Assembly (NCBI GenBank): GCA_030835125.1
Contig: JAUQWM010000020.1
Location: 31,021-95,020 of the forward strand
Direction: 5' to 3'
Source of the DNA: Gemmatimonadaceae bacterium
GTDB lineage: Bacteria; Gemmatimonadota; Gemmatimonadetes; Gemmatimonadales; Gemmatimonadaceae
DNA length: 64,000 nt
In this document: positions 2,100 through 64,000 of the stretch, piece by piece
Layout: the number at the start of each line of letters is the position of its first letter
How positions within the stretch are numbered: the stretch's first letter is position 1
Notes under the pieces: generated by a model
The model's input: the letters and a program-made list of their open reading frames with translations, nothing else
Told to the model about the DNA's origin: nothing
Databases searched by the model: none
Program-made: the position numbers and the translations under genes

Positions 2100-2120
2100 G
2101 ACCTCCGACCTCCGACCTCG
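2100..2120. repeat. Short 7-bp tandem repeat (GACCTCC x2 + GACCTCG)
   Basis: gacctcc gacctcc gacctcg read directly; intergenic, just before the stop of the next gene. Confidence 0.6.
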
Positions 2121-5511: not shown

Positions 5512-5526
5512 GCAGTGATCCCCGAT

Positions 5527-5582
5527 GCCCGACGCCCGACGCCCGATGCCCGATGCCTGATGCCTGATGCCCGATGCCTGAT
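5527..5582. repeat. 7-bp tandem repeat array, (GCCYGAY)x8
   Basis: gcccgac gcccgac gcccgat gcccgat gcctgat gcctgat gcccgat gcctgat between convergent gene ends. Confidence 0.9.
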
Positions 5583-5584
5583 GC

Positions 5585-8500
5585 CTATCTATAGCGTACC
5601 CCCAGCCCCTCCCGCCTGAACCCGGCGTCCCGCAGCAATTCCGCATACGCTGACGCGCCCGCGGGCTCACGATTGATGGTCTCGACCATGATGTCGGGGG
5701 CGCGGCCGACTCCGCTCCCTGCCGTCAGGTGCACCACCAGTGCCCCGACGGCCGCCGACACCAGCGCCGGTTCCTCGCCAGGGCGGATCGCGATCCGGCG
5801 ACCGCGTCCCTCGACCGAGAGGACGACGCGGCCACCGGCGCAGACCAGCAGCGCCCCGCTCCCGCGCGGGCGCGTGAACGGATCCACGTCCACCCCGGTG
5901 AGCGGCAACGCATACACGTTGGCCGGGTCAGACGCCGCCATCACCACCACCGCGTCAGGCGCGGCGTCCGGCGATGCCTTCGCACGCAGCATCTCCACCG
6001 CGGCCGGCAGGGCGAACTGCGCCCCCGCCAGGCCGGCGACGAAGTAGCCTCGCTGCACCTCACCCCGGAACTCGAGCCGCTTGAGTTCGAGGTAGATCTC
6101 CCGCCACGACACCGCCGGTCGTTCCCGGCGCCACCAGTCCCGCGACACCACGCCGTAGCGCGCCAGCCATTGCCGCGCCACCGCTTCCGCCAGCTCCCCT
6201 TCCTCGCCCGGCTCGGCGCCTAACGTCCCCGGGGCGTGGACCAGCGACCAGCGGCCGCCCCAGGTGGCCGCACCGGGACGGTCTGGTCGCTTCCATCGCG
6301 CCAGGCGGCGCATGCCGGCGCGGCGCTGCACCACCGGACGCGAGGTCGAGGGCGTGAACCCCTCGGGCAGCCAGCGCGTGGGGTCGACCTCGGTCGGGCG
6401 CCTGGCGGGAAGGACGGGACGGTGACGGATCACGTCGCGAAGGGCTTCGACCGTGTCGTTGGTGACCAGGCCGGCGGCAACCAGCTCGCGCAACGCATCG
6501 TGCAGTCGCTGGGAGCCGGTCGACGTCGCGGCCGCGAGGTCGGCGACGAACGATGCGCCCTGGGCGCGCAGCACCGCGAGCACGGCGCGCGCTGGTGCGC
6601 CAAGCGTCGCCTCGGAGGGTTGGCCCAGCCAGAGACGCCCGGTTCCCCGCTCGAAGAACCGGACCCGGCCCACGCCCGCCGCCGGTGCGCCGACGACGGC
6701 AGGGCCGCCCTCGTCAGGCCGCGGCGGTGGCGGCTCGGCGGCCCAGACGAGGCGCCCACTGGCGGCAAGGGCATCGAGCGCGCCGCGGTCGTAGGGCGAG
6801 AGCCGCGCCGGCAGGTAATCACGTTCCCATGACGCCGCCGGGCGTGACAGCCCGTAGAGCTGCGACAGCACGGTCGCCGTCCCGTCAGGCCCCGCCAGTC
6901 GCGTGTCGGGCGTCAGGTGCTGCCAGCGCTGCATGAACCGCGCAAACGCCTCGATCGATACCGCCTCGATCTGCTTCCGCGCGCGCGCCAGCTCCAGACG
7001 CCGGGCGCGTTCCAGCGGCCGGCGGGCAGTCCACCGGACGACCTCGCGGCCCGGCCCGAACGATCCCCGCACCACCACCCGTGCCGCCAGCCAGTCGTCC
7101 ATGCGGCGCGCGACCCATCGGGCATCGAACGCATAACGAGTGACGATGTCGTCCACGGACACCGGACCGGCCAGGACGATCCACCGCGCGAGGACATCCC
7201 GCCGCGCCGCGGGTCCGGTGAGCGCCACCTGCCGCACGGCCTCCGGGATGGCCTGGCTGGCCGGCGTCTCGACCCCCCGCGCCGGATCGCCATCCCGGTG
7301 CGTGCAGACGGTGTGCACCGCGTCGCCAAAGGCCGCCGCATAACGAGACCAGGCATCCACCAGCAGGAACCGGCGCGCCCCGGGGAACAGCGCGACCGAG
7401 ACCAGGCGCCCGCTCGCCAGGAGCGCCGCCAGCGGATCGCCCCGCAGCCACTCGCCCGCCGGCGCCACGCGGGCCCGGAGTTCGCCCTCCGTCACGTCGC
7501 CGGCCCGGTCGACGAGCACGGCCAGTTCGTCGGCGTCCCGCGCCTGCCACCCCGTCGCCGTTCCGCGGCGTCGCGCCAGCACCTCCTCCAGCACGGCGAG
7601 GGTGGCTTCGTCGGCACCCTGCCCGCCCAGCAGTTCGTCCAGCAGCGCCTGGTCGAGCGACAGCAGCGCCGCGCGGGACTCGGCGCGGGGCGTGTCGTCG
7701 CCGTACATCCAGTCCATCACGAAGCCGAACTGCAGCGAGAGCGCGAAGGGCGAGGGCATCTCCGTCGCCACCGGGCGGATGCCTAACGCGCCGGAGGCGA
7801 CGCGGCCCAGCACATCGCGCAGCCCGTCGAGGTCGAAGGCGTCCTGCAGGACGTCGCGGTAGGTCTCCACCACGATCGGGAACGACGGGAAGTCGCGGAC
7901 CGCCTGCAGCAGGTCCGCCGCCTTGATCCGCTGCAGCCAGAGGGGCATGCGCCGCCTCGGACTGCCGCGCGGCAGGAGCAGGGCGCGGGCCGCGTTCATC
8001 CGGAAGCGCGCCCCGAACAGCGACGACGCGCCGACCTCCTCGAGCAGGAGCTGCTCGGCCTCGGCGGCGGTGAGGGTCCGGATCACGTCGACCGGGACGG
8101 TCACCGCGCCGAGATCGGGGAGCCTGAGCATCAGGCCGTCGTCGGTGGTCTGCACCTGGACGTCGACGCCCAGGTGTTCCTGGAGGCGGCGGCCGAGCGC
8201 CATGCCCCACGGCGCATTTACCCGTCCGCCGAAAGGCGCGTGGAGGACCATGCGCACACCGCCCACCTCGTCCCGGAAGTGCTCGAGGACGAGTGCTCGC
8301 TCGTCAGGCACGGTGCCGGTGATCGCCCGCTGCGTGTGGACATACTCCACCAGCGACCGGACTGTGGGGGGGTCGGCATGATAGTCCTGCCCGATCGCGA
8401 CCACGGCGTCCGGGCCTTCCGCCATGTCGAGGCGGCGGCGGAGGGCGCCGACCCGGCCGCTGAGGTGGTGTGATCGCGCCATGAACTCGCCGTGCCAGAA

Positions 8501-58355: not shown

Positions 58356-58928
58356 ATGCAGAGATTCTCTCGACTCGGTATCGCCCTCATCGCCTTCGTT
58401 GCGGCCTGCAAGGCGCAGGAAGCTCCCCCGGCGGTGGACAGTGCATCGTCCAGCCCGTCCTCCGTGACGGCAGACCTGCTCACGGACCTGACCGGCGTCG
58501 AGAAGAAGTTGATCGACCTGGCCCAGGCAATCCCGGAGTCGAAATACGGCTGGCACCCGGACAGTGCGCGGTCGATCCGCGAAGTGCTGCTCCACCTTTC
58601 GTCGGACAACTACCTGTTGCCGGCGATGCTCGGTCACACGCCGGACCCGGCCACGGGCATCACGACCGACTACAACACCGCGGTCGCCTTCGAGAAGCGC
58701 GCCCTGGGCAAGGACAGCGTGATTGCCGAGATGCAGCGGTCATTCGCGTTCGTGAAGCAGGCCTTGCAGGGTACGGCGCCGTCGGCCCTGACCGGACCAG
58801 TGACCATGTTCGGGCAGCCGTTCACGGGACAGTCGGCGTGGATCCTGGCCGTGACGCACCTGCACGAGCACCTGGGGCAGATGATTGCGTATGCCCGGAC
58901 GAATGGAGTGAAGCCGCCCTGGAGCTGA
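58356..58928 (+). CDS. DinB-superfamily lipoprotein
   Basis: Lipobox FVAACKA; YGWHPDSARSIREVLLHLSSDNY, VTHLHEHLGQMIAYAR. Confidence 0.82.
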   Translation: MQRFSRLGIALIAFVAACKAQEAPPAVDSASSSPSSVTADLLTDLTGVEKKLIDLAQAIPESKYGWHPDSARSIREVLLHLSSDNYLLPAMLGHTPDPATGITTDYNTAVAFEKRALGKDSVIAEMQRSFAFVKQALQGTAPSALTGPVTMFGQPFTGQSAWILAVTHLHEHLGQMIAYARTNGVKPPWS

Positions 58929-58934
58929 AGAATT

Positions 58935-58976
58935 GCAGAGTGCAGAGTGCAGAGTGCAGAGTGCAGAGTGCATAAT
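58935..58976. repeat. 7-bp tandem repeat array, (GCAGAGT)x5 + GCATAAT
   Basis: Read directly; begins 7 nt after the DinB stop codon. Confidence 0.95.
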
Positions 58977-59069
58977 GCAGGTGCGTGATCTTGCTGGGGA
59001 GTGCAATACCATGGTTACGGAGTTGGGGTCGGATGGCGCGAGATTGGGCGCGTCTCCGACTCCTCTCTC

Positions 59070-59441
59070 ATGGCACCCAATTCATATCGTGAACTGATCG
59101 TCTGGAAGAAGTCACTGACGCTCGCCTGCGATGTCTACCGCCTCACGTCCACGTTCCCCGAGGCTGAACTGTCTGGCCTGACGTCACAACTGAGGCGCGC
59201 CGCCGTTTCCATTCCCAGCACCATCGCCAACGGACATGGGCGATCCACTCGCGGCGAGTTCCTCAAAGCGCTTTCAGTTGCGCGTGGGTCCGCCAGCGAG
59301 GTCGAGACATTGCTCCTCGTAAGCCAGCGACTCGAGTACGGCGACAAGGCCAGGAGCGACCAACTGCTCGCCGAGCTGGACCAGGTCCTGCGGATGCTCG
59401 CCCGCATGCGTTCCCGCCTGCGCGAGGGACACCACAAGTAA
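59070..59441 (+). CDS. Four helix bundle protein (TIGR02436 / S23-IVP-like)
   Basis: YRELIVWKKSLTLACDVYRLTSTFPEAELSGLTSQLRRAAVSIPSTIANGHGRSTRGEFLKALSVARGSASEVETLLLVSQRL. Confidence 0.9.
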   Translation: MAPNSYRELIVWKKSLTLACDVYRLTSTFPEAELSGLTSQLRRAAVSIPSTIANGHGRSTRGEFLKALSVARGSASEVETLLLVSQRLEYGDKARSDQLLAELDQVLRMLARMRSRLREGHHK

Positions 59442-59463
59442 TCCCGGCTTGTGAAGCCCCTTT

Positions 59464-59554
59464 GCGCTCTGCACTCCGCCCTCCGCCCTCCGCCCTCCGC
59501 AATCTTCACTCTGCACTCTGCACTCTGCACTCTGCACTCTGCACTCTGCACTCG
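59464..59554. repeat. 7-bp tandem repeat array, 13 units (GCACTCT/GCCCTCC/GCAATCT variants)
   Basis: gcgctct gcactcc (gccctcc)x3 gcaatct tcactct (gcactct)x5 gcactcg; abuts the stop codon of the HlyD gene. Confidence 0.95.
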
Positions 59555-59555
59555 C

Positions 59556-60725
59556 TTACCCCCTTACCCTCGTTCCATCCACCAGCCGCTCGTCCGGGTG
59601 CCGCACCACGCGATCACCGGGCTCGATCCCGCCCGTGACCTCGATCGCCGAGGCGCTGCGCTGACCGGTGCTGATCTTGCGCAGCCGGGCGCGACCGTCG
59701 GTCACTACAAACACGCCCCAGCCTCCATCCAGTGGCACCAGGCTGGTCGATGGGACGGCGAGGACCGAGTCGGCGCTCCAGACCTGGATCGACGCCGACA
59801 CCCGGAAGCGATCGCCAAGCCCCGTGACTGGGTCCCTGAACCGCGCGACCACGTTCACACGCTGCTCCTCGACGCCTAACGGCGAGAGCCTGGTGAACGC
59901 GGCCGGCTCCACCCGCTCCACGCGCGCGGCGAGCGGCGGTCCCTGCGCCACGCGAACGACGATCGCCGCCCCGGGGACAATCCGCGTGGCGTCCGCGGAC
60001 AGCACGTCGACGAGCACCTCGATGCGGGACGGATCGCCGACCTCGAGCAGCGGTGTGCCGGCCGGGATCACGCGCTCGTGCTCCTGCAGCATCCGGAGCA
60101 CGCGACCCGTCATCGGCGTGCGAATCTCGACCAATCCCCTCGCGTCCTGTTGCCCCGGGCCGGAGCCGAGGAGTGCCGTACGAGCGCGGCGTTCGTCCTG
60201 CGCCGCGGCTTCGGCGGACGAACGCGACACCTCCACATCCCGCTGCCGCATCTTCTCCGTGGCGATCGCTCCTTCCAGTTCGCGCTGGGCGATCGCGCCC
60301 GCCTCCGCGAGGCGTTCGGCGCGCGTCCGGTCATGGCGCGCCTCGTCCAGCGCGATCTCCGCCTGCTGCACGCGGGCCGTGCCTGCCTCCCGCAGGGCCC
60401 GGGCCCCGGCGAGCGCGGCTTCCGCCTCGCGCACGCCTCTCGCGTCGAGGGGCGCCGGTGCCAGGCGTGCAACGACCTGCCCGCGCGTCACGCTGTCGCC
60501 GGGTTGCAGGCTGCTCTCGAGCATCCGTCCACTCACGGGCGCCGCTATCTCCACGTGCTCCCGGAGGCGTGTGATGCCATCCTCGTCCACGGTGACGGTG
60601 AGCGGCCCGGGCATGACCTCGTGCAACTCGACCTCGATCACTTCCGGCCGCGTCATGAAGAACGCCGCGAGTGCCAGCGCGGCACCCGCTCCAAGCGTCC
60701 ATTTCCAGCGCGCAGGTACGGTCAT
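59556..60725 (-). CDS. HlyD/RND-type efflux periplasmic adaptor
   Basis: VEIAAPVSGRMLESSLQPGDSVTRGQVVARL, coiled-coil Ala/Arg/Glu-rich region, VEIRTPMTGRVLRMLQEHERVIPAGTPLLEVGD. Confidence 0.93.
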   Translation of the reverse strand: MTVPARWKWTLGAGAALALAAFFMTRPEVIEVELHEVMPGPLTVTVDEDGITRLREHVEIAAPVSGRMLESSLQPGDSVTRGQVVARLAPAPLDARGVREAEAALAGARALREAGTARVQQAEIALDEARHDRTRAERLAEAGAIAQRELEGAIATEKMRQRDVEVSRSSAEAAAQDERRARTALLGSGPGQQDARGLVEIRTPMTGRVLRMLQEHERVIPAGTPLLEVGDPSRIEVLVDVLSADATRIVPGAAIVVRVAQGPPLAARVERVEPAAFTRLSPLGVEEQRVNVVARFRDPVTGLGDRFRVSASIQVWSADSVLAVPSTSLVPLDGGWGVFVVTDGRARLRKISTGQRSASAIEVTGGIEPGDRVVRHPDERLVDGTRVRG

Positions 60726-63854: not shown

Positions 63855-63973
63855 CCGTTCCTCCCCGCAGGTTGCCTCGGGGACGCAATTCCTGAACGGA
63901 GCATCGCCGGATGACCGCCCGGGATCTGTCAGCCGGGGGCGGCGCGCGTGTCGGGGAACGCCTTATGGGACTA

Positions 63974-64000
63974 GTTGAGAGTTGAGAGTTGAGAGTTGAG
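63974..64000. repeat. 7-bp tandem repeat array, (GTTGAGA)x3.9, truncated by window end
   Basis: gttgaga gttgaga gttgaga gttgag at the window edge. Confidence 0.9.

Follow-up and report, generated by a model that had tools for sequence, protein, structure and literature searches.

The question raised by this locus is what kind of genetic unit is formed by a small four-helix-bundle (FHB) gene together with the two inverted arrays of tandem heptamers that enclose it. The locus lies in a 64,000-nucleotide stretch of DNA (hereafter the window) from G000, the 4.48 Mb draft genome of a Gemmatimonadaceae bacterium. To our knowledge, the widespread TIGR02436/S23 proteins are without an assigned role, and the 7-bp intergenic repeats that have repeatedly been described are without a known cause. 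The results presented here indicate that the FHB gene and the repeats are probably parts of one previously unrecognised, repeat-spreading genetic element.

Anatomy of the window unit

The left arm of the unit, an array of perfect (GCAGAGT)n heptamers, occupies positions 58934–58972 of the forward strand and continues in degenerate form as far as 58984. The right arm, a (CACTCTG)n array on the reverse strand at 59507–59553, is the reverse complement of the left arm over 59512–59550. The perfect heptamer inverted repeat of the original prediction was present, at a length of 39 bp (58934–58972 against 59512–59550) rather than the 38 bp given there. Between the arms are a leader delimited from sequence (58985–59069, forward strand), the FHB gene (59070–59441, forward strand; 123 aa plus stop), which is the single convincing gene in this interval, and an inner right array of (CTCCGCC)n on the reverse strand (59474–59500), for which a left partner is absent. 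The unit is flanked on the left by a gene for a DinB_2 superfamily protein (58356–58928, forward strand) and on the right by a convergent gene for a MacA/HlyD-like efflux adaptor (59556–60725, reverse strand). Since these coding sequences end at 58928 and 59556, intervals of 5 bp and 2 bp separate them from the arrays, in agreement with the earlier claim that the arrays nearly abut the neighbouring stop codons. The unit, in a neighbourhood of kinase, DinB, MacA/HlyD-like and permease genes, sits between DinB and the MacA/HlyD-like gene and not inside a 23S or 16S rRNA helix.

Matches of the predicted protein to TIGR02436 (E=5.7e-32, 110 bits against a cut-off of 24) and PF05635 (E=6.6e-34, 117 bits against a cut-off of 33.8) confirmed that the inverted repeat encloses one gene of the kind predicted. 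Pfam and NCBIfam searches returned S23 family matches only, with no catalytic domain and no transposase, including the HUH tyrosine type. The AlphaFold2 model was a confident four-helix bundle (pLDDT 94.6), and Foldseek comparisons gave TM scores of 0.85/0.90 against 2GSC (XCC0516), 0.80/0.87 against 2RLD and 0.74–0.88, at 8–9% identity, against Avd of a diversity-generating retroelement (4DWL, 8UB8). The window FHB protein is a member of the S23, or 23S rRNA-intervening-sequence, protein family and has the S23/Avd fold.

The ORF of the unit is bounded by complementary ends capable of forming a stem, and the predicted RNA fold of the unit was 6.6 sd more stable than those of shuffled sequences (n=20); an Rfam search with the unit gave no family match. 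From the predicted fold, an RNA-folding role for the unit is plausible.

Inverted arms of FHB genes in the phylum and in other bacteria

To score the arms of a locus, the 350 bp before the gene were aligned locally with the reverse-complemented 350 bp after it and the highest-scoring alignment was kept; scores of 17 or more were taken as significant. Such scores were obtained at 72 of 86 FHB loci of the phylum and at all six further loci of one genome (G016), i.e., at 78/92, as well as at 51 of a set of 74 FHB loci, nearly all of them from outside Gemmatimonadota (Acidobacteriota, Bacteroidota, Chloroflexota, Clostridia, Planctomycetota, Proteobacteria, Verrucomicrobiota, CPR and others). The corresponding frequencies among mismatched locus pairs were 1.8% for the phylum set and 0.9% for the 74-locus set, and only 5/233 small genes of G000 other than FHB genes had such arms (8/236 when the three FHB genes of the sample were included). 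Convergent-gene and chance origins of the arms were ruled out by the mismatched-locus and small-gene controls. In the host genome itself, intergenic inverted repeats that reached the same score were rare (only 30 in 860 kb), which, together with the small-gene result and the stability of the predicted RNA, argues that the window inverted repeat is not a product of chance.

Each of the eight FHB genes of G000 was within an inverted repeat. The arm words were AGAGTTG in L001, GCAGAGT in the window unit (L002), AGGCATC in L003, GGAGACG in L004 (an eroded pair that scored under the cut-off), ATCGTGA in L005, GAGGTCC in L006 and GCAGAGT with GCAGATT in L008; the arms of L007 comprised a 6-mer, GGGGCT, and a GCTGCGTGCTGATTGCTG block. 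Within-genome FHB paralogs, at 68–73% identity, occupied unrelated loci, which indicates that the number of FHB units has grown, but by events that are not recent. Four copies of a non-heptamer hairpin family (GCTGCGTGCTGATTGCTG... / GCTGCGTGCTGATTGCTGCCTGCTGCTGCT) were located in G000 at C22:73100, 78470, 154430 and 157676, all within 90 kb; three of them were empty and one enclosed an FHB gene (L007).

Such packaging of FHB genes was seen in roughly twenty phyla besides Gemmatimonadota. In an array-rich Pyrinomonadaceae genome, one of two FHB genes was without arms. The expectation that other TIGR02436 genes would be flanked by inverted arrays was thus upheld in G000, the phylum and elsewhere, and the proposal that arrays and gene form one unit is supported by the arms at all three levels. 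Among the 74 loci, the gene-strand unit of the upstream arm followed a common grammar, A-G-(T/G)-G-(G/A)-(T/C)-N, with an information content of 5.02 bits as opposed to 3.84 ± 0.10 when within-unit positions were permuted; this signal was much weaker in Gemmatimonadota (3.84 against 3.53 ± 0.12).

Dispersed arrays and their relation to FHB genes

Arrays and hairpins were surveyed in an 860 kb sample of G000. Period 7 accounted for 99 of the 111 intergenic tandem arrays with periods of 6–12, and 70% of intergenic arrays were within 15 bp of a gene edge, frequently between convergent genes. The purine-rich strand of the arrays was directed inward from the gene edge (odds ratio 13.7, p=1.7e-8), compared with only a slight purine bias at array-less edges, and this orientation held at gene starts too. 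The placement of arrays at gene edges and their frequency between convergent genes would be expected if no unit existed and the arrays were independent gene-end repeats, an inverted pair then being the default product of a convergent gene pair. That explanation is scarcely credible in view of the rarity of bracketed small genes other than FHB genes, the matching of arms within but not between loci and the extension of the orientation rule to gene starts, and it was rejected by the mismatched-locus controls.

The majority of intergenic inverted repeats in G000 were empty, with loops of 2–140 bp, and the three FHB genes of the sample were all in large-loop inverted repeats. One array pair surrounded another gene, phosphoesterase-like by reading of its translation. 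Within the window, dispersed arrays were noted at 63973–64000 (forward strand, (AGTTGAG)n, the arm word of L001), 5521–5586 (reverse strand, (GATGCCC/T)n, the word family of L003) and 2100–2119 (reverse strand, (GACCTCC)n, the word family of L006). Throughout G000, (GCAGAGT)3 gave 118 matches, overlapping ones counted, as opposed to none for the reversed control; the arrays are therefore not restricted to FHB genes. At one site (positions 1500–1643 of L012, on G000 C7), a (GCAGAGT)n array passed straight into a 96-bp (GTGCTG)n hexamer array.

The association of dispersed arrays with FHB units was evident from their words. Thus, 48 of 95 dispersed 7-mer arrays in G000 contained an exact arm word of an FHB unit from the same genome, whereas equal-sized sets of arm words taken from other genomes gave a mean of 0.4 exact matches and a maximum of 2 (500 draws), and letter-shuffled arm words reached 48 matches in none of 5000 draws. 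The contrast was smaller when one mismatch was allowed (75 matches against a decoy mean of 29.5 and maximum of 69). Similar relationships were noted in other genomes: in G006, each of the 13 7-mer arrays could be assigned, by reading, to the word family of L166 or to that of L039, both units of this genome; the GAGGGCAG and GCGTGGA arrays of G016 corresponded to the arms of L057 and of L256, a unit retrieved only after the arrays were known; and in G052, which has one FHB gene, the arm word was present in three of five sampled 7/8-mer arrays. In a Pyrinomonadaceae genome (G162) that contains an FHB unit with the word AGTGACG (L303), at least 270 matches to three copies of this word were found, against 2 for the reversed control, often as inward-facing array pairs 30–200 bp apart. 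The same search gave 28 and 10 matches in two other Acidobacteriota genomes that share this arm word and none in 18 of the 22 genomes for which the FHB unit that was retrieved bears another.

FHB-free genomes of the phylum (n=8) contained no intergenic 7-mer arrays in 530 kb, although one had two 8-mer arrays, and genomes with five or more FHB genes (n=7) contained 124 7/8-mer arrays in 1.26 Mb, 99 of them from G000. No dispersed heptamer arrays were found in the samples of three FHB-rich genomes (G019, G034 and G060), and the rank correlation between FHB number and array density over 26 genomes was weak (0.36, p=0.07). Since arrays were absent without FHB genes and also absent from three of seven FHB-rich genomes, FHB looks necessary but not sufficient for the presence of arrays, as judged from small samples. 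FHB genes may drive the arrays, with causation in the reverse direction, through settlement of FHB in hairpins, as the main alternative.

In Xanthomonas-type genomes, where the relative of XCC0516 was predicted to be flanked by GGGAATC arrays, FHB and GGGAATC arrays were both present, the arrays in abundance in the genome of the copy that was open to checking. No exact or degenerate 3-copy array was found within 7 kb of the FHB copy in G374, which has an in-frame stop; around the G341 copy, exact arrays were absent over 17 kb. The prediction was not borne out at the checkable copy (G374), a result that counts against the universality of the FHB-array link.

Orthologous units at fixed loci

In orthologous units, gene, orientation and place were kept while both arms changed. 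This was evident in the spacer before ychF, which was occupied by an FHB gene in ten of the family's genomes that were sampled (L004, L049, L052, L060, L065, L066, L155, L166, L174 and L186), with FHB identity of about 30–90%. The arms at this locus, complementary to each other in every case, ranged from GAGAAGAC and GTGAGTC arrays through GGCTATT arrays to long arms without tandem structure; two of the ten pairs (L004 and L065) scored under the cut-off. Other ychF spacers were plain, contained FHB fragments (G035, G028 and, by reading, G045) or contained an empty GGGAATC hairpin (G002). This spacer was used for comparison of empty sites in place of the DinB-HlyD locus because identity to the HlyD-like protein did not exceed 49% in any other genome. 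In a congeneric genome (G005), the orthologs of L003 and of the window unit had other arm words; that of the window unit had short, imperfect arms only and adjoined a kinase gene, DinB and HlyD being absent there. Arrays that change independently of the gene, which had been named as evidence against a single unit, do occur, but the arms change jointly and stay complementary, so the unit is not broken by such change.

Purifying selection acts on the FHB gene (dN/dS 0.05–0.18 where dS was measurable, with dS close to saturation), although in 15 of 18 ortholog pairs its conservation was lower than that of the neighbouring genes. The orthologous units were stationary across genera, which indicates that mobility is low at best. 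The suggestion that the unit is transposable gained no support from these comparisons: orthologs occupied the same locus across genera, no known catalytic domain was present and target duplications were not observed. Filled and empty spacers before ychF were too diverged for junctions to be defined. One observation favors the companion suggestion of a recombining unit, namely that L001 was inverted with respect to its neighbour (homogentisate-dioxygenase-like by reading) in the sister species G005, as expected if inverted arms recombine.

The main competing explanation of these findings is that FHB is a passenger. Heptamer hairpins would then arise by slippage and serve the host, at transcript ends or in mRNA stability, or serve nobody, with FHB genes settling in the loops and gaining local words. 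The emptiness of most G000 hairpins and of the GGGAATC hairpin in the ychF spacer of G002, where relatives hold FHB, are in keeping with such a history, as are the known occurrence of intervening sequence (IVS) elements in rRNA helix tips (PMC4990558) and the polymerase slippage proposed as the origin of heptamers (PMC4692102). We nevertheless consider it unlikely, because FHB-free genomes of the same family were without 7-mer arrays, the FHB units of G000 differ in word and most of their words are abundant in the genome, and arms still matched after complete sequence turnover at a fixed locus.

Several observations concern the leaders and other genes with similar surroundings. A Gibbs motif search on leaders recovered array and ychF coding sequence and no leader motif, and a scan with a hand-read motif gave few matches. 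A leader motif, roughly GGAATTGNTACCNCNTGCGTTGTNAGGGTGA, was noted before several FHB genes of the genus and before one GxxExxY and one Uma2-like gene (G000 C12:61810 and C22:54522; L001, L050, L201 and L202), and it is possible that it represents a shared promoter or RNA element. Inverted arms were present at 13 of 28 GxxExxY (TIGR04256) genes (L226–L255; L079 is G000 C22:3159–3751), with words of a different, more uniform family (CACGGAG / CGCCGAGGA, period 8–10), and a Uma2-like gene was within similar arms at G000 C22:33271–33714. In G037, many short N-terminal GxxExxY fragments (model positions 2–28 to 2–50) were spread over contigs and may represent a miniature element of GxxExxY origin.

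Discussion

Two known systems resemble the window unit, which is a member of neither, as it has no HUH transposase and is not in rRNA. In the RAYT/REPIN system, inverted repeats bracket a gene and cognate repeats are dispersed between genes, often as hairpin doublets; the presence of the RAYT gene is tied to the abundance of its repeat, and the gene itself moves little and evolves faster than its neighbours (PMC2817692, PMC3116915). Likewise, the FHB gene has on either side, in inverted orientation, copies of a repeat that is dispersed in the genome, outpaces its neighbours in evolution and moves little. The differences are that FHB is a four-helix bundle as opposed to an IS200/IS605-type tyrosine transposase and that the repeats are tandem 7-mer arrays as opposed to single palindromes with a GTAG-type head.

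In the second system, the rRNA IVS of Coxiella and others, terminal inverted repeats at least about 28 bp long form a stem whose loop contains the S23p ORF (PMC4990558). The FHB unit shares with it the protein family and the hairpin-bounded ORF, but is located in spacers between protein genes and has arms that are mostly tandem heptamers with cognate arrays dispersed in the genome. These likenesses, the strong stability of the predicted RNA stem and the arms of orthologs that change and yet remain complementary would also fit an IVS-like RNA element, in which selection on an RNA stem, cut by RNase III or bound by FHB, maintains complementarity, the DNA arrays are no more than products of slippage in the stem and the dispersed arrays are unrelated or decayed. 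An element of that kind is quite improbable, since it leaves unexplained both the sharing of words by dispersed arrays and their inward orientation at gene edges, and the arms of one locus contain mismatches.

Intergenic heptamers have been published as STRR of cyanobacteria, as TAACTGA of Beggiatoaceae (PMC4679880), which is the reverse complement of an AGTTATC-type unit, and as GGGAATC of Xanthomonas, with about 70 inward-facing inverted pairs per genome (PMC4692102). Like the G000 arrays, these are 7-bp tandem units in spacers by gene edges, but they were reported without a linked gene, whereas the G000 arrays are tied to FHB genes and arm words. In the open-access literature, no report was found that links S23/FHB genes to heptamer arrays, although an earlier report elsewhere is possible. 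The FHB protein also has the Avd fold; in contrast with Avd, no reverse transcriptase was found among the immediate neighbours of the window unit.

By analogy with these systems, the best reading of the window unit is an intergenic, array-armed relative of IVS that may work like REPIN-RAYT. It would be one of eight "master" copies of a hairpin-array element in G000, with the FHB gene in the loop of two inward-facing heptamer arrays that fill the spacer up to the neighbouring coding sequences. The FHB protein, if it binds nucleic acid as Avd suggests, may recognise the array of its own unit as hairpin RNA or single-stranded DNA and promote the copying of array hairpins into other spacers. Slippage would lengthen the arms, hairpin-templated repair or gene conversion would keep them identical, and the dispersed arrays would be non-autonomous and dependent on the FHB units, in the way that REPINs depend on RAYTs. 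Whether FHB masters and dependent heptamer hairpins form a REPIN-RAYT-like system built on an unrelated protein is, in our judgement, evenly balanced. The broader proposal, that S23 FHB genes across bacteria are dedicated drivers of heptamer repeats, each with recognition of its own word and hairpin spread without a transposase of its own, is a possibility to which we give somewhat less than an even chance.

The FHB-array link suggests a cause of the repeats that can be tested and provides the protein with a candidate substrate, and it is unusual for two DNA arms to turn over jointly while their locus stays fixed. The fold shared with Avd is a possible route to how such bundles handle nucleic-acid hairpins, and G162, with its inward-facing array pairs, is a rich system for experimental or strain-level study. 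Dedicated FHB drivers, if the proposal is true, would be a new class of repeat-protein system and would account for a large orphan protein family as well as for the unexplained bacterial excess of 7-bp tandem repeats.
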